Shown piece after piece: positions 40,189 to 50,871 of a stretch of DNA of 64,000 nucleotides. The notes beneath the pieces are model-generated. The model was not told the DNA's origin and made no database searches. It saw only the letters and a list, made by a program, of their open reading frames with translations. The stretch spans positions 6,256 to 70,255 of the forward strand of contig MGYJ01000006.1 of assembly GCA_001801685.1 (NCBI GenBank), in the 5' to 3' direction. Position numbers and translations under genes: made by a program. This DNA is from Gammaproteobacteria bacterium RIFCSPHIGHO2_12_FULL_63_22. GTDB taxonomy: Bacteria; Pseudomonadota; Gammaproteobacteria; Xanthomonadales; Xanthomonadaceae. Each line of letters opens with the position of its first letter. Position 1 is the stretch's first letter.

Positions 40189-40475
40189 GCATCCAACTCG
40201 ACCACGTGACTGCCGGGGTCAGCAAGCCGGACAGCCACCTTGAAGTCCTGTTGGGAAACCTGGCGACAGGCGATTCCCGATTGGTGCAGGCCTTGTTGCG
40301 CGTTGACCTGGGTGCCAGGATCAATGTCGACTCGTCGGCGGGCAGCATCGACATTGAAGGCCGCTTCCGCAGGGAAGACGTGATCCTTGCCATCGAGGCC
40401 CTCGGCTATTTCATCGTTTCCATCGAAGCGAAGCCGCGGTCGCCAATGCGATCGTCGGCCTACCTCATCGCCTGA
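40185..40475 (+). CDS. Small HMA-fold-like protein
   Basis: A 96-residue protein with a likely ferredoxin-like beta-alpha-beta-beta-alpha-beta fold. VQALLRVDLGARINVDSSAG, then IDIEGRFRREDVILAIEALGYFIVSIE, follows the heavy-metal-associated (HMA) domain pattern with its late helix and GY motif, but the metal-binding CxxC is absent. It may bind a ligand other than metal or regulate the TetR. It is translationally coupled to the TetR gene. This assignment is inference. Confidence 0.5.
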   Translation: MSIQLDHVTAGVSKPDSHLEVLLGNLATGDSRLVQALLRVDLGARINVDSSAGSIDIEGRFRREDVILAIEALGYFIVSIEAKPRSPMRSSAYLIA

Positions 40476-40493
40476 GTCCCTTTCCGAAAGGGA

Positions 40494-40745
40494 TCAGCGG
40501 ACCCGCACGGTCACCAGTTGTTCCAGCCCCGGCATGGATTCGACGGCGTAGCGCCGGCGCATGTCGGTGAGGCAGTTGTCCACGATGTACCGGGGCTGGT
40601 CTTCCTGGCGATTGAAGCGATCGGCCAGGAATTTCCGGCCGCGTTCGGCCCGGGTATAGAAATCGAGCGGATCGGCGGCGATGATTTCTGCGGAGCGCGC
40701 GTAGTACTGTGCACGCCGGTCGATGCTCATGGTTGAGTAATTCAT
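40494..40745 (-). CDS. Small protein, unknown function
   Basis: An 83-residue, strongly charged protein (MNYSTMSIDRRAQYYARSAE at the start) without signal peptide or membrane segment. Several helices with Arg and Tyr are likely. GGGAGAAG is well placed before ATG 40745. It is convergent with the HMA-like gene. I do not recognise the family. Confidence 0.5.
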   Translation of the reverse strand: MNYSTMSIDRRAQYYARSAEIIAADPLDFYTRAERGRKFLADRFNRQEDQPRYIVDNCLTDMRRRYAVESMPGLEQLVTVRVR

Positions 40746-40896
40746 GGCTACTTCTCCCTGAGAAAGTTTTTCCGCTTCGCCCCGGATCACTGTTGCGCCT
40801 GCATTGGCGTAATCCGACCTTACTCACCTCTTATTAACGTGATCCTTAATGGAATGCGGCCGCGGAATTCCGTTCAGCCAGGTGACAGGCAAGAAG

Positions 40897-40922
40897 GAAG
40901 GGCCGACGATTGCCGGCCCTTC
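40897..40922 (-). terminator. Hairpin downstream of the truncated RcnB gene
   Basis: Nine-base perfect stem GAAGGGCCG / CGGCCCTTC (40897-40905, 40914-40922) with an eight-base loop. The minus strand continues CTTGCCTG, with only a weak T-tract. It probably ends transcription from the RcnB-like copy and the four-hydrolase operon. Confidence 0.5.
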
Positions 40923-40952
40923 AGGTGCGCACTTACTGGACGACGCCAGGCA

Positions 40953-41399
40953 TCAATAGAACAAGCTGTAGATGACGTCCCGTACCAGTCCATTGGTGAC
41001 CGCTACCAGATAGGCATCGGAACCAACGCGGTTCCAGCGGTAACCCGGGGGCGGCGCATACAGGCCGTACGGTCGATAGTCAATGTAGTACCTGCCGCCG
41101 TAATAGCTGCGCGGCAGCCGCGAGCCGACGCTGTAACGCATGTAGGTGTAGTTGCGTGGGGCGTAATAACGTCCGGCGTTGTAACGATGGCGCGCGAAAT
41201 AGCGGCGGTCGTCGAATCGGTCATAGCGGTTCGGAACGCCGTCGCGGTCCCGGTCGCGATAGGTGGTGCGACCATCGATCTCATAGCGGTCATTCACGCC
41301 ATCGCCGTCGCGGTCCCAGATGATGTCGCGACGATTGTCATAACGGTCGTAGCGGTCATCCAGGCCGTCCCGGTCGTATGATGACGAATCCCGATTAAT
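40953..41399 (-). pseudogene. 5'-truncated RcnB-family gene copy
   Basis: The open frame 41399-40953 encodes acidic/basic Asp-Gly repeats (DRDGLDDRYDRYDN, WDRDGDGVNDRYEIDG, YRDRDRDGVPNRYDRF) and a complete C-terminal RcnB-like segment (RPYGLYAPPPGYRWNRVGSD to YSLFY). It has no ATG and no signal peptide; the frame is closed by a TGA at 41400-41402. The only standard start is an internal GTG at 41297 without ribosome site. Its intact relative lies at 48525-49196. I read it as a decayed or truncated duplicate; expression from the GTG is possible but would give a protein that cannot be exported. Confidence 0.65.
41011..41042. repeat. Direct repeat copy 1 (32 bp)
   Basis: A 32-base segment that is identical to 48583-48614. 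Both copies lie in the conserved end of RcnB-family genes on the same strand, with the four-hydrolase operon between them. Confidence 0.8.
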
Positions 41400-41486
41400 T
41401 CAAACTTAGCGTGGCACTCCCAGCTTGCTGATGCGTGAATTAACAGTTCTTGACCCGGCAGCCGCGTTCATCGACGAGCCGACCTG

Positions 41487-44400
41487 CTAATTCATGCCGG
41501 TGCGCGGCGGCAACCAGATCTCCAGAACGCCCGGGCTGCCCTTGACCGACGGTGGCAAGTTTCGCAGCGTGGTCTCCGGCGACACGATCGACCGCACCGC
41601 ATCGACGCAGCTCTCCGATGCGCCCGGATGCGCGACAACCGCCGGCGACGACCAGACATACGGTGGTTGACGTCGATTGCGCTTCGCGGTTTCCACCACG
41701 TTCTGGATGGGCGTCTTGCCGAAGCCGAGTTCCTTGACCAATCGTGCCGCGATCTGCTCGGCTGCCGCGCGACTGCCTTCGTCGTAGATGTGCAGGAAGA
41801 TTCGCGCGTCCGATGCCAGGCACGTCGACCGCGCCTGGGCTGTTGGAACGGATGCGGCAGCCAATTCGACGTCTCGCACCGCTTCCGCGTCGAGGACCAC
41901 CGCGCTTTCAGGTTCGGGAGATGGTGGCGGTGCCGGCGGTGGCGGCGGAATCGCGACGACGGGTTCGGCGCCTGCTGTGTCGGCGCTTGCTTCGACTACT
42001 GCCGCTGCTTCCGCCTCCGCCGCCGCAACTTCTGAGACTGCATCTTCGGCGACTGCCTCGTCAGCCATCGCAACAGTCGCCGTGTCCGCCGTCTGCTCCG
42101 GGATATCGGCTATCGCGTAGCGCGGCAGCTTGTCCGCGAACCAGTAGTCGTAGAAGGGCTTGGGCTCGGCGGTAAGGTCGGTATACAGGCTCTCGCAGGC
42201 CCTCTTGTCCTTGTCCACCGTCAGCGACTCGCAACGCGAATTCAGGGAATTGCGCAGATAGTCGAATCGACCATCGCCGCGCTGTTCGGATTGTTCGGCG
42301 AAGCTGCTGAATTGGGCTGCGAGCATGGTGTCCAGGTTGCCTTCGCGAATTTCCTTGCTGTGCGCCACGAACAAACTGTCGTAGTCACGGTTCTCCACGC
42401 GCCGCGATTCGCGGTACTGCTCGACCCCTTGCCAGGTCGCCAACAGCACGCTTAGCGAAATGCCGGCGCCGAGTGTTGCGCGCGCGGTAAGACCCGCGCG
42501 ATCGCGCCTACCGACCTTGGGTTCCTGTGCCCGCGTCTGTTCTTCGGCCTTCACCAGGCTCGATGGCGCGTGGGTCATGTCCGTCACGGCGGCCCGTGCC
42601 TGCTCGATCAGCGTGCTCGTCATCCTTTCGCCCAACAGCAAGCCCAACTGGTGGTAGGCCTCCCATTGCGCCTCGTCGAAGAACTGGTCGCCGGTGGACT
42701 GCTGCGGGAAATCAGGGTTGCGGTCGGCATAGGCCACGATCTCGAACGGCATCTTGTCGAGGCGGCGTGGTTTGACAACCAGCAACGCGCCTTCTGTCTT
42801 GTCGCGGTACTGGATGCGGCCCAGCACCAGCCAGTTCGGTGCGGCTTCGGGGCTGATGTTTTCCGGTGTGCCCAAGGCCGCGGCAAGTTCGCCCGGCAGT
42901 TTCTCGCCAAGCTTGGCCGGGTCCACGAACTCAATGGTCGCACCGAAATCGATCTTCGCCTTGCGCACCAGCGACTCAAGATCCGAGAACAAGTACTTCG
43001 GGTCGGCGCCGCAATCGGCAGCGACGATCACCTTCGGCCGCCGCTTCAACAGCGCGTAGATACCCGTGTTGTCGAAGTGGCCGCCATCGGACACGTACCA
43101 GATCGAACTGAACAATCCGGGAAAACGCGCCATGGATTCGGCGACGATGGCGAGCGGCTTCGGCGCAAAATCCAGCAGCGCGGACCGGAAGCGCTTGGGC
43201 AGGCTTTCCGGCCGCTGGCTGGAATCGAGCAGGGTCTTGGTCCAGAAGCCCAGGCGCAGGCCCGACAGGAAGAGCAGGCTGGCAAAACCGGGCGAAGTGC
43301 GTGAGCCCATGCCGGTGCTCGCCGCGGCGCCGGAGATCGCGATCCAGCGCGACAATCTGCCGGGCGGATTCACGAACTCAGTGGATTGGGCGAAGCTCGT
43401 TCCCGATTCCGCGCCCAGCGAGCCAATTGTCAGGGACACGCCCTTGCGATCGGCGTTGTAGTTGCCGGTCCGGTCGTCCACGGATTGGTTGATGCAGCAG
43501 TTGATCAGGTGGATGGGCCCGCCATGCCGATGCGGCGCGTAGTCGGTCAGCTCGACATCGTCACCTTCGATGGCTTCGGTCAGCGGGGCGACGCGCCAGG
43601 TGTTCTCGGACGACACGTCGTTCAAGGATGAGCTGGGGAATCGTGCATCCGGCCCGTCGCAATTTCCCGAGGACACGTAGGCGCGCTCGATCCGTGCGCG
43701 ATAGAAGTTGTGCAGCGAGGCCAGGTTGAGCAGGTCGAAGCTTCGGCGTGTCGCCGCCACGTAGACCAGGCACAGGCCCACCACCACTGCCCAGGTAATC
43801 ACTTGTGGCGCATCGCTCCATGCGGCGCCCATCGGCAACACGCGGGTGCTGTTCCAGATCGGGAACAGCGCGATGCTAAGCAGGGTCGTCCAAAAGACCG
43901 CGACCAGCAGGGCCAGCAAGATGCCGAGCAGGTTCAGGACTTTTTCGATGTTGATGTTGGGTTGTTTCGACGACGCCAGGCGCCTCTGGATTTCAGGCAG
44001 CGCGAGCCGGCCTGCCGCCAGCACGACGGCCACCAGGGCGGTCAGTCGGTAAGGCGCCGAAATATTTTCCGGGTCCCAGAAAAGCGCAGTCAGCCGCCAG
44101 GTGACGAGGTCGAGTACGCCCAGCGCGAACATGACGGCCAGGGCCCACAGGCTGTAGGCCAGTCGTTTGGTGCGCTTCAAGCGAATGCCGACCACCGGCT
44201 TCTTTCGCAGCAGGTCGACCATGGTCGCCAGCCAGGCGGTGACGGGCGCCAGGCTGAGGAAGGAAAGCAGGTACAGCGCGACGATGGATGCGGCGGGCAC
44301 CGTCGTATTGCCCAGGTGAAGCTGGAAGCGGTGGTCTGCCGCCTGGTTCAACCAAAGGCCGAGTGCGACGCCACTTGCGGCGGCAGCCAGTATCAACAGC

Positions 44401-45071
44401 CAGCTGGTCCAGCTCTGCGAGTCGCGTGTGTACCAGTAGCCAAACAATTGGTGCATCACCGCGAAGATCGGCAAGGGCAACAGCCACCACCACACCGAAT
44501 CGACCAGGCTGACGAAGGGCAGGCTCCTGAGCGATCCGGCCTCCAGCGGCGGCAGCAGCGACACCAGCATGTGTGGGGCCAGCACCAGCGCGGCCAGCAT
44601 CAGCACCAGTATTCCGATTTCCAGGTGGGTGGAGACGATGCCGCGAAGGATGGATGCCGTTGCAAAGCCGAGGTCCTTGGCGCCGGCGGGCGTCAGGTAG
44701 CGGCCGTTGTTGCGCAACCACCACAACCACATCGAATTGTCCTTGGCGATGCCCGCTTCGACGTCCTTGGCCGGCACGCCAGCGCGGAAGAGTCGGCCTA
44801 TGCTCGCGCCGATGTAGCCGCCGCCGGAAACCGTGGAAAGGTAGTCGAATTGGCGGAGTAATCCATTTCGCGCCAAGCCGCGAATGACGCCGAGGCAGAG
44901 CGTTGCACTGCGCACGCCGCCGCCCGACAGTGCGATGCCCCAGCTACCCTTCGGATCCCCGGGTACGCCCGCCACCTTGCGCCGCGCCTGCACGTGCTGG
45001 TCGAACTCGGCCTTCGCCGCCTTGGCGCCGCCGTCGACTTCGACTTGCGGATCGGTGATCACGTCTTCCAT
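41487..45071 (-). CDS. Multi-pass patatin-like phospholipase
   Basis: An 1194-residue protein. The N-terminal patatin half has the oxyanion loop SGGGVRSA (about 49-56) and the nucleophile in STVSGGG (Ser82). About eight membrane helices then intervene (about 150-440). The second half of the patatin fold resumes, with the catalytic Asp in VSDGGHFDNTG (Asp662), so both catalytic halves must lie on the same membrane side, probably cytoplasmic. A further membrane helix near residue 840 leads to an Ala/Glu-rich stretch, a proline run and a SPOR/LytR_C-like C-terminal domain (IFLHIYDEGSRAAAEQIAARL, LVKELGF), probably periplasmic. Last gene of a four-gene operon, 26 bases after the protease gene. 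Ordinary patatins have 300-400 residues. Confidence 0.75.
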   Translation of the reverse strand: MEDVITDPQVEVDGGAKAAKAEFDQHVQARRKVAGVPGDPKGSWGIALSGGGVRSATLCLGVIRGLARNGLLRQFDYLSTVSGGGYIGASIGRLFRAGVPAKDVEAGIAKDNSMWLWWLRNNGRYLTPAGAKDLGFATASILRGIVSTHLEIGILVLMLAALVLAPHMLVSLLPPLEAGSLRSLPFVSLVDSVWWWLLPLPIFAVMHQLFGYWYTRDSQSWTSWLLILAAAASGVALGLWLNQAADHRFQLHLGNTTVPAASIVALYLLSFLSLAPVTAWLATMVDLLRKKPVVGIRLKRTKRLAYSLWALAVMFALGVLDLVTWRLTALFWDPENISAPYRLTALVAVVLAAGRLALPEIQRRLASSKQPNINIEKVLNLLGILLALLVAVFWTTLLSIALFPIWNSTRVLPMGAAWSDAPQVITWAVVVGLCLVYVAATRRSFDLLNLASLHNFYRARIERAYVSSGNCDGPDARFPSSSLNDVSSENTWRVAPLTEAIEGDDVELTDYAPHRHGGPIHLINCCINQSVDDRTGNYNADRKGVSLTIGSLGAESGTSFAQSTEFVNPPGRLSRWIAISGAAASTGMGSRTSPGFASLLFLSGLRLGFWTKTLLDSSQRPESLPKRFRSALLDFAPKPLAIVAESMARFPGLFSSIWYVSDGGHFDNTGIYALLKRRPKVIVAADCGADPKYLFSDLESLVRKAKIDFGATIEFVDPAKLGEKLPGELAAALGTPENISPEAAPNWLVLGRIQYRDKTEGALLVVKPRRLDKMPFEIVAYADRNPDFPQQSTGDQFFDEAQWEAYHQLGLLLGERMTSTLIEQARAAVTDMTHAPSSLVKAEEQTRAQEPKVGRRDRAGLTARATLGAGISLSVLLATWQGVEQYRESRRVENRDYDSLFVAHSKEIREGNLDTMLAAQFSSFAEQSEQRGDGRFDYLRNSLNSRCESLTVDKDKRACESLYTDLTAEPKPFYDYWFADKLPRYAIADIPEQTADTATVAMADEAVAEDAVSEVAAAEAEAAAVVEASADTAGAEPVVAIPPPPPAPPPSPEPESAVVLDAEAVRDVELAAASVPTAQARSTCLASDARIFLHIYDEGSRAAAEQIAARLVKELGFGKTPIQNVVETAKRNRRQPPYVWSSPAVVAHPGASESCVDAVRSIVSPETTLRNLPPSVKGSPGVLEIWLPPRTGMN

Positions 45072-45097
45072 TGCGTTAGATTCCCTGGTGATGGCCG

Positions 45098-46153
45098 TCA
45101 GTCGAGTTCGACTTCCAGTGTGTCAAGTACGTCCGTGATGGGATTGGCGTAGGCATAGCTGCCGTTGTCGGGGCAGGCTAACAGCAGGCCTACGGCTGCG
45201 TTCGATGATTTCCCGACGATCAGCGCGCCGCTGTCGCCACCCTGCGCGAAACGTGACGAGCCAGTGCGAGGGCGGATCCGCAACTGGTGGGTGAAGCGCG
45301 CGACGCGGGTTGGGTCGGTGCGTGAAAGCGGCACCAGCACATCGCAATCCACGTCGTCGATGACGCCGCTGGAATAGCCGGTGGTGCGGGCGTGCTTGTG
45401 CACTGCCATGTCCACGCTGGGAAGCGCCACGCCGTTGACGACGCCCACCGTGCAGATGGACGAGGACAGCGCGACGCTGCCATCCACGGATGCGACAGCC
45501 GCGTCCACGCGGTTGTCCGCCTGCGCACCCATGGCAATCGGCGCGAAGCGCAGCAAGCGGCCGACCACGTCGCCGGGCTCGCCGCCGTCGCCGATGGCGG
45601 GTTGGCAGATTTCCGATCCAATCGGCGCGACCCCGAAGTCCGCGAGCACGTGGTTGTTGCTGAGCATCAGTCGCAGGCCGTGTTCACCGGCTTTTCGCGA
45701 CCTGACGCGCGCGCCGAGCGTGCCGCCGATGACGTTGACGTTGCCGAGCGAGGCGCCGGGCTGCACCGGACGCTGGCGGGTCAGCCGCTTCATCGTGCAC
45801 GGCGCCAGCGGCATGGCGAAGTAGGCGGGCGGCGCTTCGATCACGTCGGTTTCTATGCCGGCAATCCGTGATGGAAGCATTGCCGCCAGCCCGACCAGCC
45901 GCCTTGGCAATTTGCGCGCGACATACAGGCGTACCGACAGCATGTCGGTGAGTTTGCCGCCCACGCGCTTGCGGCCGATGCCCACGGCATGCAAGAGTTC
46001 AGTGGCGCGGCCCTGCAGGTCGGCGATGCGCTGGTGCATTTCAAGGGCTTCGAAGAGCGGATGCCCGGACCGGAAGCAACGTGCGCTCAACTCGCGCTTG
46101 GCCATTCGCAGGTCTTCGAAGACGGACGGATCGATGTCGCGGCGCCGGGGCAC
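45098..46153 (-). CDS. Trypsin-fold serine protease, unknown target
   Basis: A 351-residue protein without a signal peptide. The catalytic triad is readable: His168 (LSNNHVLAD), Asp217 (NRVDAAVASVD) and Ser308 (FAQGGDSGALIV). The first 100 residues form a separate helical, basic N-terminal region. The overall layout matches chymotrypsin-like proteases that are found as parts of multi-gene accessory systems. The start is GTG 46153, two bases after the stop of the MBL gene; an internal ATG is at residue 17. It is operonic with the patatin gene. Confidence 0.75.
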   Translation of the reverse strand: MPRRRDIDPSVFEDLRMAKRELSARCFRSGHPLFEALEMHQRIADLQGRATELLHAVGIGRKRVGGKLTDMLSVRLYVARKLPRRLVGLAAMLPSRIAGIETDVIEAPPAYFAMPLAPCTMKRLTRQRPVQPGASLGNVNVIGGTLGARVRSRKAGEHGLRLMLSNNHVLADFGVAPIGSEICQPAIGDGGEPGDVVGRLLRFAPIAMGAQADNRVDAAVASVDGSVALSSSICTVGVVNGVALPSVDMAVHKHARTTGYSSGVIDDVDCDVLVPLSRTDPTRVARFTHQLRIRPRTGSSRFAQGGDSGALIVGKSSNAAVGLLLACPDNGSYAYANPITDVLDTLEVELD

Positions 46154-46155
46154 GG

Positions 46156-47484
46156 TCAGTATTCCGTTTCGACGGTCAGCACGCCGTCGGACGTGGCCTT
46201 GATGGCGATGTTGCCGTCCCAGCCGTTGGCGTAGATGGCCTTGTCCATCGTCCAGTAGGTAAAGTCGGGCGGCGTGCCGTTGGTGGGATGACGACCCTTG
46301 GTGCCTACGCGAACCTGCTTGGGTTGGTCGCGCGCCAACGTGATGCCATTTTCCGGGTCGAGCAGGTTGGTCAGTGCGGTCGCATTCGGATGGCCGAAGG
46401 CATAAGCGCTGAAGCGCTCGTCATCCGGCCACGAATCGCCGGACTGGATGACGGCAATCTTCGGCGTGACGGCGGCGACCAGGGCGGCGGTGGTCGCGTT
46501 GTGCGAGCCGTGGTGTGCCACCTTCAGCACGTCGGCATTGAAGGCGCGCTGGTCCGCTGAATAAGACTCGAGCATTGCCGCGATGCCCTCGGCCTGGATG
46601 TCGCCGGTAAAGAGGAATACCGATTTTCCGAAGGCGACGCGCAACACCACGCTGTCATTGTTGGCATTGTTGGCCCAGGCCACGTCCAGGTCGGCGCGAC
46701 CCCATAGCGCGGCGATCTTCGGGTCAACGCCCACGCCGCCGCGACGGCAGTTGATGGGATCGATCACTTTGCTGGTAGCGCCGGACACGGTCCTGATGTC
46801 GGATTCGGCGATGCCCAGGTAGCCGACGCCCTCGGTATCGTTGGCATAGGCTTCCAGGTCGCGCTGGCCCTTGCCCCCCGAGGCATGCGAACTTGGCGGG
46901 CCGCCGTCGAGCACGTTCATTATGACGATCGCAGGTTCCGCTTCGAGCAACACCGACACGCCGCCGGTGTGGTCGGCATGTGGATGTGACAGCACCACCG
47001 ATTGCAGCGTGCGCGCGAGATCGCTGCGGCGTTCGAAGAATTCCTCCAGGTAGGTCTGCAGGCGATCCTTGCCGGACACGCGGGCCGTGTCCTCGCCACC
47101 GGTATCAATCAGCATCGCGGCGCAGGAAAATTCGAGCAGGATCGCGTCCCCCTGGCCGACGTCGATGAAGTGGGCCACCATCGTGTTCGCGTCGGCAGTG
47201 GCTTCCGGCAAGCCGGCGGGCAAGGCGAACTCTGCTGTCGCCACGTCGTGGATCTCGCCGCGCGCAGGCGCGTTGGCATCCACCGGCTCACCGACGGCAT
47301 CGCCGGGGCTTGAAGATTGCGGTGGTCCATCGCCAGCTTCAGGCCCCATCGAGGCGATGGGCGCAGACCCCGCAGGGCTGCTTGTTTCCGATCGCATCGG
47401 CGCCGACTGGCAGCCGGCGAGCAAGATCGAAATGCCCAGGGCCAGCAGGCCGGGCACCCGTAGGGCGTTGGCGGACACGCGCAT
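46156..47484 (-). CDS. Metallo-beta-lactamase-fold lipoprotein, ComEC-like
   Basis: A 442-residue protein with a lipoprotein signal (lipobox LLAGC, Cys25), a low-complexity linker, and a metallo-beta-lactamase domain with AHFIDVGQGDAILLEF, MLIDTGGED, the metal-binding HPHADHTGG (167-175) and VLKVAHHGSHNAT. This is the ComEC/Rec2 hydrolase-domain pattern without membrane channels. The domain should be on the periplasmic side. ComEC-type domains act on DNA; nuclease or phosphodiesterase activity is inference. It is the second gene of the four-gene operon. Confidence 0.8.
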   Translation of the reverse strand: MRVSANALRVPGLLALGISILLAGCQSAPMRSETSSPAGSAPIASMGPEAGDGPPQSSSPGDAVGEPVDANAPARGEIHDVATAEFALPAGLPEATADANTMVAHFIDVGQGDAILLEFSCAAMLIDTGGEDTARVSGKDRLQTYLEEFFERRSDLARTLQSVVLSHPHADHTGGVSVLLEAEPAIVIMNVLDGGPPSSHASGGKGQRDLEAYANDTEGVGYLGIAESDIRTVSGATSKVIDPINCRRGGVGVDPKIAALWGRADLDVAWANNANNDSVVLRVAFGKSVFLFTGDIQAEGIAAMLESYSADQRAFNADVLKVAHHGSHNATTAALVAAVTPKIAVIQSGDSWPDDERFSAYAFGHPNATALTNLLDPENGITLARDQPKQVRVGTKGRHPTNGTPPDFTYWTMDKAIYANGWDGNIAIKATSDGVLTVETEY

Positions 47485-47520
47485 GATTCCTACTCCCGGA
47501 CTGGATTCGATGGCTTGCGC

Positions 47521-48408
47521 CTAGCGCAAGCGGAACAGGTTCCTGATTTCCTGCGCAAATGGTTCAGACAGTTTCTGGTACATCGCGCCGGTCGGATGCA
47601 TTTCGTCGAACCAGTCTTCCTCCTTCGGCACCCGCGTGCGAAGGTCAATGAAACGGAAGTTGTTGCGGAACCGCGCATCGCTGGCGAGCGGCTGCAATAC
47701 GCGTTCGACGAAACCATCGATCATCAGTTTCGCGAAGCGGCGCTGGTCGTCGATGTCGGGCAGGGCCACGCCGACATTGGGTCCGATCCAGGGACCGGCG
47801 TTCTTCTTCAGCAGCGCAATCAGGCCGATGTTGGCGACGGTAAGGTTGGCGGGCACGCCCAGCTTCAGGGGATAGCTATAGCTGTGGCCGATGATGGGCG
47901 TAGTCGGGCGCAGCTTCACCATGCTGGTGAGCGCCCGTTCGTAGGCCCGGTAGACCTCATCGAAGCGATTCGTCGCCACGACTGTCTGGAACGCCTGGGC
48001 AACGGTCATCGGTCCTTTTCCGGCGAACGCCTTCTTCAGGAACTTGCTGACCAGGTCGTTGCCGCCCGCGCTGAGCAAGGCGATGTCGAAATCGACCGAC
48101 CCGTACCAGCCCATGATGTCCTTCAGGCGCTTGGGCGCGAACATGTCGGTGGCCAGGTCGCCGCTGTCTTCGGCTCGGAAGAACAATCCGCCCTGGCCGA
48201 CAATGGGTACGCCGCGCTCTTCCTGCTCCGGTGTCGGAAACACCAGCCAGTCCAGGATATTCATGCTCGCTGGCGTCGAGAACCAGGAGTCGCCCTCGCA
48301 GAAGACCACCGGCGTGCGCGAGCGCAGGTCCGGGTGTCGCTTCAGCGTGCGATAGATTTCCCTGAACTCGCCGCGGCGAGTGCTGTAAACCGATTGGCTG
48401 CCGGCCAT
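47521..48408 (-). CDS. SGNH hydrolase, cytoplasmic
   Basis: A 295-residue protein. SGNH blocks are VVFCEGDSWFSTP (Ser41), LLSAGGNDLVS (Gly-Gly-Asn-Asp, about 115-118) and DWFDEMHPTGAMY (Asp268, His271). No signal peptide, so it is cytoplasmic, unlike the SGNH protein at 24146. It begins the four-gene operon, with AGGGGGAGCC upstream of ATG 48408; the frame is open further upstream to 48513 but that would cross the RcnB terminator. With the patatin, the operon contains two lipid/ester hydrolases. Confidence 0.75.
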   Translation of the reverse strand: MAGSQSVYSTRRGEFREIYRTLKRHPDLRSRTPVVFCEGDSWFSTPASMNILDWLVFPTPEQEERGVPIVGQGGLFFRAEDSGDLATDMFAPKRLKDIMGWYGSVDFDIALLSAGGNDLVSKFLKKAFAGKGPMTVAQAFQTVVATNRFDEVYRAYERALTSMVKLRPTTPIIGHSYSYPLKLGVPANLTVANIGLIALLKKNAGPWIGPNVGVALPDIDDQRRFAKLMIDGFVERVLQPLASDARFRNNFRFIDLRTRVPKEEDWFDEMHPTGAMYQKLSEPFAQEIRNLFRLR

Positions 48409-48469
48409 GATGGCTCCCCCTTCATGGACAATTGACGAAGATTGGGCGAGCAAGCGGCCACGCGCCAGG

Positions 48470-48499
48470 CAAACAAAAAGGGCCGGATTTCTCCGGCCC
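48470..48499 (-). terminator. Terminator of the intact RcnB gene
   Basis: Eight-base perfect stem GGGCCGGA / TCCGGCCC (48480-48487, 48492-48499) with a four-base loop; on the minus strand it is followed by TTTTTGTTT. It separates the RcnB gene from the four-hydrolase operon, which must have its own promoter between 48408 and about 48470. No clear boxes can be placed there. Confidence 0.85.
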
Positions 48500-48524
48500 T
48501 TCCGTTTTTGCAAACTGCCTGGAC

Positions 48525-49196
48525 TTAGTAGAACAGGCTGTACATCACCTGGCGCACGACGCCATTGGTGACCGACACGAGGTAGGCATCGGAACCAACG
48601 CGGTTCCAGCGGTAGCCACGCGGCGGAGCCGACAGGCCGTACGGACGGTAGTCAACATAGTGGTTGCTGCCGTAGTAGCCCTGGGGCAGGCGCGAGCCTA
48701 CGTCGTAACGCGTGTAGCGGTAGCCGCGCGGTGCATTGTAGCGACCGGCCTGGAAACGACGGTGGGCCATGCCGCGGCGGTTGTCACCACGGTCGTAACG
48801 ATTGTCGCCGCGCTGGTAGCGGTTGTCGTTGTAGCGGTTGTCATAGCGACCGTCACGGCTGTCGTAGCGACCATCGCGGTCGTAGTTGCCGGCCTGGTAA
48901 CGATCGTTCCTGCCGTCACGGTTACGGTCCCAGCTGATGTTGTTGCGGTTGTCATACGTGTCGTACTGGTCGGAAACGCCGTCACGATCCATGTCTTCCC
49001 GCGAGTCGCCATAGCGCGAGTCCGCATAGCGAGAGTCGGAATAACGATCGTCATAGCGATCGTCGTCGCGGTCGTCGTACGCGTCGGACGAGTAACGATC
49101 ATCGCGGTCGTAGTAACCACTCTGGGCCGAAGCCGTGGAGCTCATCGCGCCGGTCAGGATCAGGGCCGATGTGATAGCGAGCAAGGTCTTCTTCAT
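48525..49196 (-). CDS. RcnB-family exported protein with Asp/Gly repeats
   Basis: A 223-residue protein. Signal peptide ends at STASAQ. A long low-complexity stretch (about residues 25-150) of Asp, Arg, Tyr and Ser follows, with repeats such as DSRYADSRYGDSRED and calcium-loop-like DMDRDGVSDQYD and DRNRDGRNDRYQ. The C-terminal RcnB segment (YRPYGLSAPPRGYRWNRVGS to YSLFY) is complete. RcnB of E. coli is a periplasmic factor for nickel/cobalt homeostasis; whether the role is kept here is unknown. GGAAAC precedes the ATG. A truncated relative lies at 40953. Confidence 0.75.
   Translation of the reverse strand: MKKTLLAITSALILTGAMSSTASAQSGYYDRDDRYSSDAYDDRDDDRYDDRYSDSRYADSRYGDSREDMDRDGVSDQYDTYDNRNNISWDRNRDGRNDRYQAGNYDRDGRYDSRDGRYDNRYNDNRYQRGDNRYDRGDNRRGMAHRRFQAGRYNAPRGYRYTRYDVGSRLPQGYYGSNHYVDYRPYGLSAPPRGYRWNRVGSDAYLVSVTNGVVRQVMYSLFY
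48583..48614. repeat. Direct repeat copy 2 (32 bp)
   Basis: Identical over 32 bases to 41011-41042, same orientation, 7.57 kb away. The copies lie inside the two RcnB-family genes that flank the four-hydrolase operon. Confidence 0.8.
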
Positions 49197-49299
49197 GGGG
49201 GTTTCCTGGATGCGGAAGGTTCCGCGACGCCATGATGCCCGGCGCCGATTAATAGCGAGTAAGTGGAAGGGGCGGAAACCGACCGCCGGGTGAATGGTC

Positions 49300-50871
49300 T
49301 CAGCGCGCCTGCAGCCAGCCGGGAAGCAGGCCGTGCGGATCGATCCGTGCATCCTGGTCGTAGCTGACGCCATGCGCGGCCAACATCGCCTGCAGCCGAC
49401 CGCTCTTGAAGGCATCCATGGTGTCGGTGCAGCCACCGACGTGTTCACCGCCGATGAACACCTGTGGAATGGTCGGACTGCCGATGCGCTTGAGAAGCAC
49501 GGCACGGATCTGTCCGCCGCGGTCGTCGGCCTGGTAGGCCGTGGAGTCGAGGTCTATGGATCGATAGGGGATCGAAGCCTGCGCGAACAACTTGCGCAGC
49601 GACCAGCAGAACTCGCACCACTCGAGCGCGAAAAGTACGAGTGGCTGCGTGGGATCAGCAAGGACATGTGCGACGAAGTCTTCGACGTCTGCCGAAACCG
49701 GCGTGGCCGAGGATGCTGGTTCCGACTTCGTCGGCATGGCGCAGACAGCTGGCGAGGAGGGCGTCGCATTGTCGGACGTGGTCGCGGGCACGGGCGCCGG
49801 CGCAGGTGCAGGTGCAGGTGCAGGCGCATCAAACCGGGCACCGGGTGTCGAACGGGAAATCTCCAATTCCTCGTCCGACATGTCGGCGCCAATGCCGTCG
49901 AACAGGGGCGTGCTGAGATACCGCTCGCCGGTATCGGGCAGCATGCACAGGAAGGTCGTGCCTTCGGGCGCGGATGCGGCCACCTGCAGCGTGCCGGCAA
50001 GCGTCGCACCGCCGGACGTGCCGACGAAGATTCCCTCGCGTGTCGCCAGTTCCCGCGCCAGCCGCGTGGCATCCGCGCCATTCACCGGAACGATCCGGTC
50101 GATCAGTTTCATCGCCACAGCGGCTTCGGTCAGCTTCGGGATGAAGTCCGGCGACCAGCCCTGCATCAGGTGCGGCCGCGCGCTGGGATGGCTCTCCCTG
50201 ATGCGCCCGTCCGGAAACCGGGATTGCGGAATGCCGCTGCCCAGTACCGGCGAGTTGTCGGGTTCGCAAACCAACACCTGGATGTCGGGGCGCTGCGCCT
50301 TCAACACGCGGCTGACGCCCTTCAGCGTGCCGCCGGTGCCGTAGCCGGTTACCCAATAGTCGAGTCGCTGGCCGTCGAAGGCTTCCAGTATTTCCGGCGC
50401 CGTCGTGCGCGAATGCATATCGGCGTTGGCTTCATTGTCGAACTGCCGACAGAGGAACCAGCCATGCGCCTCGGCCAGTTCCGTCGCCTTCGCCAGCATG
50501 CCCGTGCCGCGTAGCGCGGCCGGCGTCAGCACCACTTTCGCACCGAGGAAGCGCATCAGCTTGCGCCGCTCGACGCTGAAGTTTTCCGCCATCACCACGA
50601 CCAGCGGATAGCCCTTCACCGCACACACCATGGCCAGGCCGATGCCCGTGTTTCCGCTGGTCGCTTCGATGACGGTTTGGCCGGGCTTCAAGCTGCCGCG
50701 CTTTTCCGCATCCTCGATGATGCCCAGCGCAAGCCGGTCCTTCACCGAGCCCATCGGGTTGAATGCCTCGACCTTGACGAAGACATTCACGTGCGCGGGC
50801 GCCAATTTGTTCAGGCGCACTATCGGCGTGCGGCCCACGGTTTCAAGGATGCTGTCGAACTTGCCTGGCAT
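49300..50871 (-). CDS. Cysteine synthase fused to glutaredoxin
   Basis: A 523-residue protein. Residues 1-310 are a cysteine synthase-family PLP enzyme: LETVGRTPIVRLNKL, PLP lysine in NPMGSVKDR (Lys44), TSGNTGIGLA, GYGTGGTLKG and the late TSGGATLAGTL. A proline/alanine linker follows (PAPAPAPAPAPVP). Residues about 410-510 are a glutaredoxin with ALEWCEFCWSLRKLF (CxxC), PTIPQVFIGGEHVGGC and DTMDAFKSGRLQAML. The synthase makes cysteine from O-acetylserine or O-phosphoserine. Fusion to glutaredoxin could channel a thiol or persulphide step. ATG 50871 was chosen; in-frame starts lie 30 and 57 bases upstream. Confidence 0.8.
   Translation of the reverse strand: MPGKFDSILETVGRTPIVRLNKLAPAHVNVFVKVEAFNPMGSVKDRLALGIIEDAEKRGSLKPGQTVIEATSGNTGIGLAMVCAVKGYPLVVVMAENFSVERRKLMRFLGAKVVLTPAALRGTGMLAKATELAEAHGWFLCRQFDNEANADMHSRTTAPEILEAFDGQRLDYWVTGYGTGGTLKGVSRVLKAQRPDIQVLVCEPDNSPVLGSGIPQSRFPDGRIRESHPSARPHLMQGWSPDFIPKLTEAAVAMKLIDRIVPVNGADATRLARELATREGIFVGTSGGATLAGTLQVAASAPEGTTFLCMLPDTGERYLSTPLFDGIGADMSDEELEISRSTPGARFDAPAPAPAPAPAPVPATTSDNATPSSPAVCAMPTKSEPASSATPVSADVEDFVAHVLADPTQPLVLFALEWCEFCWSLRKLFAQASIPYRSIDLDSTAYQADDRGGQIRAVLLKRIGSPTIPQVFIGGEHVGGCTDTMDAFKSGRLQAMLAAHGVSYDQDARIDPHGLLPGWLQAR

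Follow-up and report, generated by a model that had tools for sequence, protein, structure and literature searches.

Four neighbouring hydrolase genes in a Xanthomonadaceae genome, a probable composite of two recurrent gene pairs

In the antiphage systems Hachiman and AVAST, a trypsin-like protease cuts and activates a pro-nuclease of the metallo-beta-lactamase (MBL) fold. Pairs of this kind, an MBL nuclease with a trypsin, have been published from four antiphage systems in all, namely AVAST, Hachiman, Lamassu and DRT, and similar MBL nucleases also pair with caspases, in the canu loci (Tuck et al. 2025, PMC12799240). Here we describe four hydrolase genes in a 64,000-nucleotide stretch of DNA (the window) from Gammaproteobacteria bacterium RIFCSPHIGHO2_12_FULL_63_22 (contig MGYJ01000006.1, positions 6,256 to 70,255), a genome of the same family as Pseudoxanthomonas. 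At the centre of the set lie genes for a ComEC-like MBL lipoprotein and a trypsin-fold protease; on either side are genes for an SGNH hydrolase and a membrane patatin. We conclude that the operon was very probably assembled from two separately conserved modules, MBL plus protease and SGNH plus patatin. Each half is a recurrent pair of neighbours, and the arrangement is therefore more than chance.

The four genes are adjacent on the minus strand, in the order SGNH, MBL, protease, patatin, and the gaps between them measure 36, 2 and 26 bases. A preliminary description of this DNA had reported this arrangement, and the open reading frame (ORF) coordinates confirm it. A purine-rich stretch resembling a ribosome-binding site precedes each of the four start codons (by eye). 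Catalytic residues, those proposed earlier among them, are conserved in alignments of all four proteins: Ser41, Gly83, Gly116, Asn117 and His271 of the SGNH hydrolase are invariant in 6 sequences (Asp268 in 5 of the 6), as are His167, His169, Asp171 and His172 of the MBL protein in 4, the His168/Asp217/Ser308 triad of the protease in 10, and the Ser82/Asp662 dyad of the patatin in 13. The compartments predicted in that description hold up too. The MBL protein carries a signal peptide and a lipoprotein cysteine, Cys25, invariant in the 4 sequences; the SGNH hydrolase and the protease have no N-terminal hydrophobic stretch; and the patatin contains predicted membrane helices.

A conserved four-gene system, as the preliminary description had envisaged, can be rejected. 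No SGNH gene or window-type patatin gene is present at any of 36 other protease loci, the protease and a window-type MBL gene are both absent from 55 other SGNH or patatin loci, and the foursome was found nowhere but in the window. Homologues of the four genes are thus not adjacent as a foursome, but they are as two pairs. The open-licence literature that we searched yielded no description of either pair; PMC10907252 gave no hit for metallo-beta-lactamase.

The conserved partner of the protease is the MBL protein, not the patatin. The close protease clade (at least 48% identity) consists of the window protein and those of G294/Root630, G091, G680 and Caenimonas, and in all five the MBL lipoprotein gene lies directly upstream of the protease gene. 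Our genome samples are draws, 297 genomes of the family and 369 of the class; neighbours of the protease were sampled in 20 of the 27 other class genomes that have it and in 7 of 10 plasmid records. Because gene calling had overlooked some genes, the Caenimonas protease among them, locus contents were scanned with six-frame ORFs. Among the 36 other protease loci, the MBL gene was found in the four close relatives. The remaining 32 comprise 31 loci without a match to the MBL protein and one with a full ComEC several genes away.

The genes around the MBL-protease pair vary between genomes and are often other hydrolases. An alpha/beta-hydrolase lipoprotein gene overlaps the MBL start in G091 and G680, an RNase T2 gene adjoins the MBL gene in Caenimonas, and Root630 has no same-strand neighbour just upstream of the pair. 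Upstream of the hydrolase-MBL-protease genes, G091 (L017:5375-9286) also encodes a caspase (Peptidase_C14, 4.6e-25, with a weak SH3 match), a trypsin (3.5e-70) and an unknown protein; the caspase and the trypsin carry signal peptides (by eye), and G680 lacks these upstream genes. Downstream, both G091 and G680 encode a secreted protein, which in G680 gives a weak match to an Ig-like domain (0.016).

The sole Pfam match of the protease is NAL1_N (0.018). Its family profile matches NARROW LEAF 1 structures at 2e-13, as against 0.04 for the single sequence alone, and this homology to solved NARROW LEAF 1, together with the triad, places it in the S1-like/NARROW LEAF 1 branch. Pfam and PADLOC scans of the 351 residues found no fused domain. 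Relatives at E 0.001 occur in 7 of 297 family genomes, the window's own included; the close protease is present in 3 of 38 Pseudoxanthomonas genomes and a fourth has a distant one. The distribution of the close protease is patchy. The 16 other genomes of the window's genus in the family draw hold neither protease nor SGNH gene (0/16), and two of them (G196 and G257) give a short or weak patatin match.

The protease also has viral relatives: they are present on 59 IMG/VR viral contigs and in the record of an Aeropyrum virus, where the annotation reads 'putative serine protease'. The family members on viral contigs show 25-37% identity, and the protease matches a phage 'protease' PHROG at 1.6e-45. 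Beside distant bacterial proteases (10 loci in one similarity cluster: L160, L165, L168, L170, L172 and L175-L179) there is often an adjoining gene of 65-110 residues. By eye, its product resembles the N-terminal segment of the adjoining protease; it is perhaps an inhibitor or chaperone.

The MBL protein matches Lactamase_B at 1.4e-17. Its best profile is ComEC (TIGR00361), at 86 bits against a cut-off of 190, and ComEC structures, including PDB 9ic4, match as well. It also matches the PADLOC models for LmuA-, DRT- and Avs1a-type MBL proteins, the last at 54 bits where the curated cut-off is 420. Relative to the ComEC MBL domain it has about 25 extra residues between the two metal-motif blocks, and a variable Gly/Ser-rich loop lies near residues 195-210 (by eye, 4 sequences). 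Plasmids carry relatives of the ComEC-like MBL protein as well, in 74 records that come largely from Bacillota. The MBL domain also matches two phage PHROGs, one a family without assigned function (3.3e-27) and one a tail protein (1.8e-19).

The other two genes form a pair of their own. We searched for the patatin in the family only and scored two candidates per genome, so that its count is a lower bound: at least 42 of 297 genomes give a patatin match (E 0.001), 63 give an SGNH match (E 1e-8) and 22 give both, G067 among them with a patatin match of only 7e-4 on another contig. The two genes lie at most 3 kb apart in 12 of these 22 genomes. They are direct neighbours on the same strand in five (G014, G022, G126, G137 and G287) and divergent neighbours in six (G028, G097, G123, G162, G208 and G255); the window, with two genes between them, is the twelfth case. 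The G287 patatin is in broken pieces and its row was omitted from the patatin tree, and the G240 patatin has an internal stop. Many of the genomes are drafts, in which location on different contigs does not prove that two genes are unlinked. A chance figure of about 5e-28 for the linkage treats related genomes as independent and is not to be used.

The SGNH and patatin trees are incongruent, and the window copies each group with unlinked relatives. The window SGNH hydrolase joins unlinked SGNH genes of the same family (support 100/97; identity up to 68%, with G240), and the window patatin joins that of G158 (100/100; 56% identity). The G137 SGNH protein belongs to a different subfamily and groups 100/100 with an unlinked SGNH, in a tree that carries long-branch warnings, the G137 row among them. 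Together with the main group of pairs, these groupings suggest that the SGNH-patatin pair was assembled separately at least three times, and such repeated assembly speaks for a functional link between the two genes. A single early pairing, later broken up by loss and replacement, is a less likely alternative.

The SGNH hydrolase matches Lipase_GDSL_2 at 2.2e-4, under the cut-off of the Pfam model, and has the Ser, Gly, Asn and His blocks of the SGNH/GDSL enzymes. Its profile finds only a weak match among solved structures (a tagged nuclease, 0.013). It is rare in the class draw (5 of 369 genomes, the window's genome included); in one of the genomes, G333, a gene for a Tle1-like phospholipase of the type VI secretion system is located some 1.7 kb away. 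Three of five plasmid-borne relatives examined are fused, to an amidase-M15 (Rhizobium etli), a caspase (R. ruizarguesonis) and a trypsin (Geminocystis), and sit in clusters with PLD, patatin or peptidoglycan hydrolases; the products of genes near the plasmid SGNH relatives include patatin, trypsin-PLD, trypsin-endonuclease, GH19, L,D-transpeptidase and RoxA-like cytochrome. Such mixing of lytic domains is typical of conflict systems. The mixed lytic-enzyme clusters (L072, L073, L075 and L077) also hold trypsin fused to PLD or Exo_endo_phos domains, and patatin fused to a gene annotated GMC oxidoreductase. A phage or virus origin of the SGNH gene is rejected, with no match in phage records or viral contigs.

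The patatin matches PF01734 just above the cut-off (3.2e-6; 27.9 against 27.7 bits), and together with the invariant dyad this places it in the patatin family; of the 13 aligned patatins, 12 match the model. A hydropathy scan gives seven helices between the dyad residues, and by eye there is an eighth, weak one at about 192-212; with eight, an even number, both catalytic halves would lie on the positively charged, cytosolic side. The scan gives 5 to 9 helices between the dyad residues in the other twelve patatins. A further helix follows the aspartate in 9 of the 13, so that the C-terminal part may be periplasmic; in the window protein itself that stretch is under the scan threshold. Among solved structures the patatin profile has only a weak match (VIPD, 0.026), and the C-terminal part weakly matches designed repeat proteins only. 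A phage origin of the patatin is rejected; the search was confined to phage records and gave no match. Shorter patatin genes directly adjoin a gene for a RoxA-like cytochrome c protein in L066 (by Pfam), L068 and L071 (by similarity), and these three patatins form one clade in the tree; in L073 a RoxA-like cytochrome gene is two genes away from a shorter patatin.

The four genes and their surroundings are collected in the table. Copies of an RcnB-like gene stand on both sides of the set, and the 3' part of the full-length copy has 74% DNA identity to the stretch 40945-41231 of the remnant. In the same-genus genome G669, homologues of the outer flanking genes (49300-50871 and 40494-40745) are about 135 bases apart, an empty site. 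G669 is a draft genome, 81% complete, with a contig of 3.9 kb here; it is the one informative genome of the three same-genus genomes whose synteny we compared around the flanking gene 49300-50871, since G663 shares only that gene and G076 that gene and one other. Its product is a cysteine-synthase-like enzyme with a C-terminal glutaredoxin-like part (by eye), and it is matched near full length in G663, G669 and G076; most other same-genus matches cover the first part only. The hairpin between the RcnB and SGNH genes is a possible RcnB terminator; our hairpin scan gave 7 such sites in the region as against 6.6 in shuffles.

Table 1. Features of the four-gene locus and its surroundings (window coordinates).
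Feature	Position	Strand	Remarks
Segment without counterpart at the matching place in same-genus G669	40746..49304	.	about 8.5 kb: RcnB, four genes, remnant
RcnB-like remnant	40953..41381	minus	downstream of the four-gene set; 5' end and signal peptide missing; RcnB 1.1e-15
Patatin-like phospholipase, 1194 aa	41487..45071	minus	7 predicted membrane helices between Ser82 and Asp662
Trypsin-fold serine protease, NARROW LEAF 1-like family, 351 aa	45098..46153	minus	GTG start; no signal peptide
ComEC-like metallo-beta-lactamase-fold lipoprotein, 442 aa	46156..47484	minus	predicted periplasm-facing
SGNH/GDSL-type hydrolase, 295 aa	47521..48408	minus	first gene of the set; no signal peptide
Hairpin, 10 pairs	48478..48501	.	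between RcnB and SGNH gene; T run follows when read on the minus strand (by eye)
RcnB-like gene, full-length copy	48525..49196	minus	upstream of the four-gene set

What might such a composite do? Our tentative proposal, which we think less likely right than wrong, is that the operon is an emergency hydrolase set for envelope and DNA. The patatin, its catalytic halves in the cytosol around a multi-helix membrane domain, would deacylate inner-membrane phospholipids. The cytosolic SGNH hydrolase would take off the second acyl chain or process the products, a relay of phospholipase A and lysophospholipase to which we give even chances. The C-terminal part of the patatin, perhaps periplasmic, would sense the envelope. 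In the second module the periplasm-facing ComEC-like MBL protein would be a nuclease that needs the co-encoded protease in order to mature or to act; for this coupling, which we infer by analogy with the published pairs, we put the chances a little short of even. Joint expression, for which we assume a common promoter, would break membrane and nucleic acid after an envelope breach by phage, competitor or lysis, and lead to cell arrest or death. That the set serves in emergencies or defence at all is a guess we hold with no more assurance than the proposal as a whole.

Several observations weigh against this proposal. The MBL protein and the protease are predicted in different compartments, so that direct cleavage of the former would need export or a membrane breach. 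ComEC models score above defence MBL models for the MBL protein, and at E 0.1 a PADLOC scan gave no match for the protease, the SGNH hydrolase or the patatin. Nor does the locus sit in a recognizable defence island: a PADLOC scan of 24 neighbours (window 32-62 kb) returned two generic matches (7e-7 and 7e-6) and no clear defence system, and no mobility gene was recognised by eye, without Pfam, in the same interval. Codon use gives no sign of a recent foreign origin either, being typical of the window (synonymous-codon distance 0.08-0.13 for the four genes; 39 other window genes average 0.13). A scan of 40400-49700 found no sigma-70-like promoter. The SGNH and patatin genes are not within 3 kb of each other in 10 of the 22 genomes that hold both, and unlinked patatins keep a constant chromosomal place in four genomes of genus g16 (L056, L057, L058 and L060), where the gene looks like an ordinary chromosomal one. 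A defence role is no more than plausible, and turnover of phospholipid or nucleic acid is a serious rival.

In that rival, phospholipid recycling and degradation of environmental nucleic acid would supply phosphate and carbon, with no role in conflict. We consider it unlikely, if only slightly less likely than the emergency set. Patatin and SGNH genes that stand alone at repeated chromosomal places in relatives speak for it, as do the RNase T2 beside the Caenimonas MBL gene, which fits nucleic-acid scavenging, the plasmid-borne MBL relatives and the lack of clear defence neighbours among the 24 genes scanned. It does not account well for a protease locked to the MBL gene in all five cases or for the patchy presence of the protease in the family and its absence from the 16 other same-genus genomes; moreover, inspection by eye, with no scan made, showed no Pho-box-like site ahead of the SGNH gene. 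A second rival, which we rate lower again, is that two unrelated modules happen to be on one transcript, each acting independently. The foursome is confined to the window, the MBL-protease pair does without SGNH or window-type patatin in the available stretches of G091, G680, Root630 and Caenimonas, and the 55 other SGNH or patatin loci do without its two genes, all as this explanation would have it. The tight gaps, and the nesting of the second pair inside the first, suggest instead selection for co-expression.

The preliminary description had proposed that the protease activates the patatin. Its wider idea, a hydrolase set under protease control, stands as an idea; the patatin as target is not favoured. 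A cytosolic protease that switches on a membrane patatin as an abortive-infection effector is very improbable in our judgement, even though only 26 bases separate the two genes and the cytosol is the predicted place of both active sites. A plasmid of Streptomyces canus does have a patatin gene about 1.5 kb from a same-family protease-nuclease fusion, with an insertion sequence between, but that patatin is of another family and has no significant match to the window protein. Among the loci examined, the two families are joined in the window only, and this disfavours the wiring: the MBL gene adjoins the protease gene in the whole close clade, and the 36 other protease loci lack window-type patatin. 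Scarcely less doubtful is a two-compartment suicide switch, in which the exported MBL-trypsin pair would be wired to patatin and SGNH hydrolase. Cytosolic protease and periplasmic pro-nuclease would meet once the inner membrane had been breached, whether by a phage, by a competitor or by the patatin, and DNA would be destroyed only when the envelope fails.

The emergency-set proposal matters for what each half would mean. The MBL-protease pair, if correctly read, would extend protease-activated nucleases to the cell envelope, where DNA is taken up and phage genomes enter. That SGNH hydrolases are repeatedly coupled with a membrane-split patatin predicts a two-step phospholipid-degrading machine. 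The operon links two recurrent gene pairs that are uncharacterised as far as our literature searches reached.

How, then, does the locus compare with known systems? The family profile of the protease covers plant NARROW LEAF 1 in its N-terminal segment and its His- and Ser-bearing blocks, but the window protein is bacterial and shorter. The patatin shares with the PF01734 proteins the Gly-rich motif, the GxSxG serine and the DGG aspartate, but its dyad residues are 580 residues apart with 7-8 membrane helices between, and a long C-terminal part follows. CBASS-type patatins, by contrast, are soluble. The MBL domain of ComEC/Rec2 gives the best profile matches to our MBL protein (TIGR00361, PDB 9ic4 and ComEC structures), yet the latter falls far under the ComEC cut-off and is a free-standing lipoprotein without the competence membrane domain. 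AVAST type 1 is not recognised here either, with Avs1a under its cut-off and no STAND-type match among the 24 neighbours at E 1e-5; we found no Avs1a examples for comparison in 185 class genomes or 14 control genomes, which does not show their absence. G091 resembles the canu loci in that its hydrolase-MBL-protease genes are closely preceded by a caspase gene and unknown genes. The window set, however, has no caspase, that of G091 has a signal peptide (by eye), G680 has none, and the gene order differs from that of the canu loci.

Closest of all are the gated MBL-trypsin pairs. As in those, a ComEC-related MBL gene immediately precedes the gene for a trypsin-fold protease, both in the window and in four relatives; the two active sites are intact, and the pair is seen with varying partner genes. 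The differences are equally plain: the window MBL protein is an exported lipoprotein (the main text of PMC12799240 does not mention periplasm, lipoprotein, patatin or SGNH), no sensor gene is recognised at the window, and the protease, a member of the NARROW LEAF 1-like branch without a match in PADLOC, is unfused (no HamA, Avs1 or LmuA). Because of the exported MBL protein, the unfused protease of another branch, the lack of a recognised sensor and gating loops that are putative at most, we do not file the MBL-protease module as a member of the gated pairs, but by analogy it may work alike.

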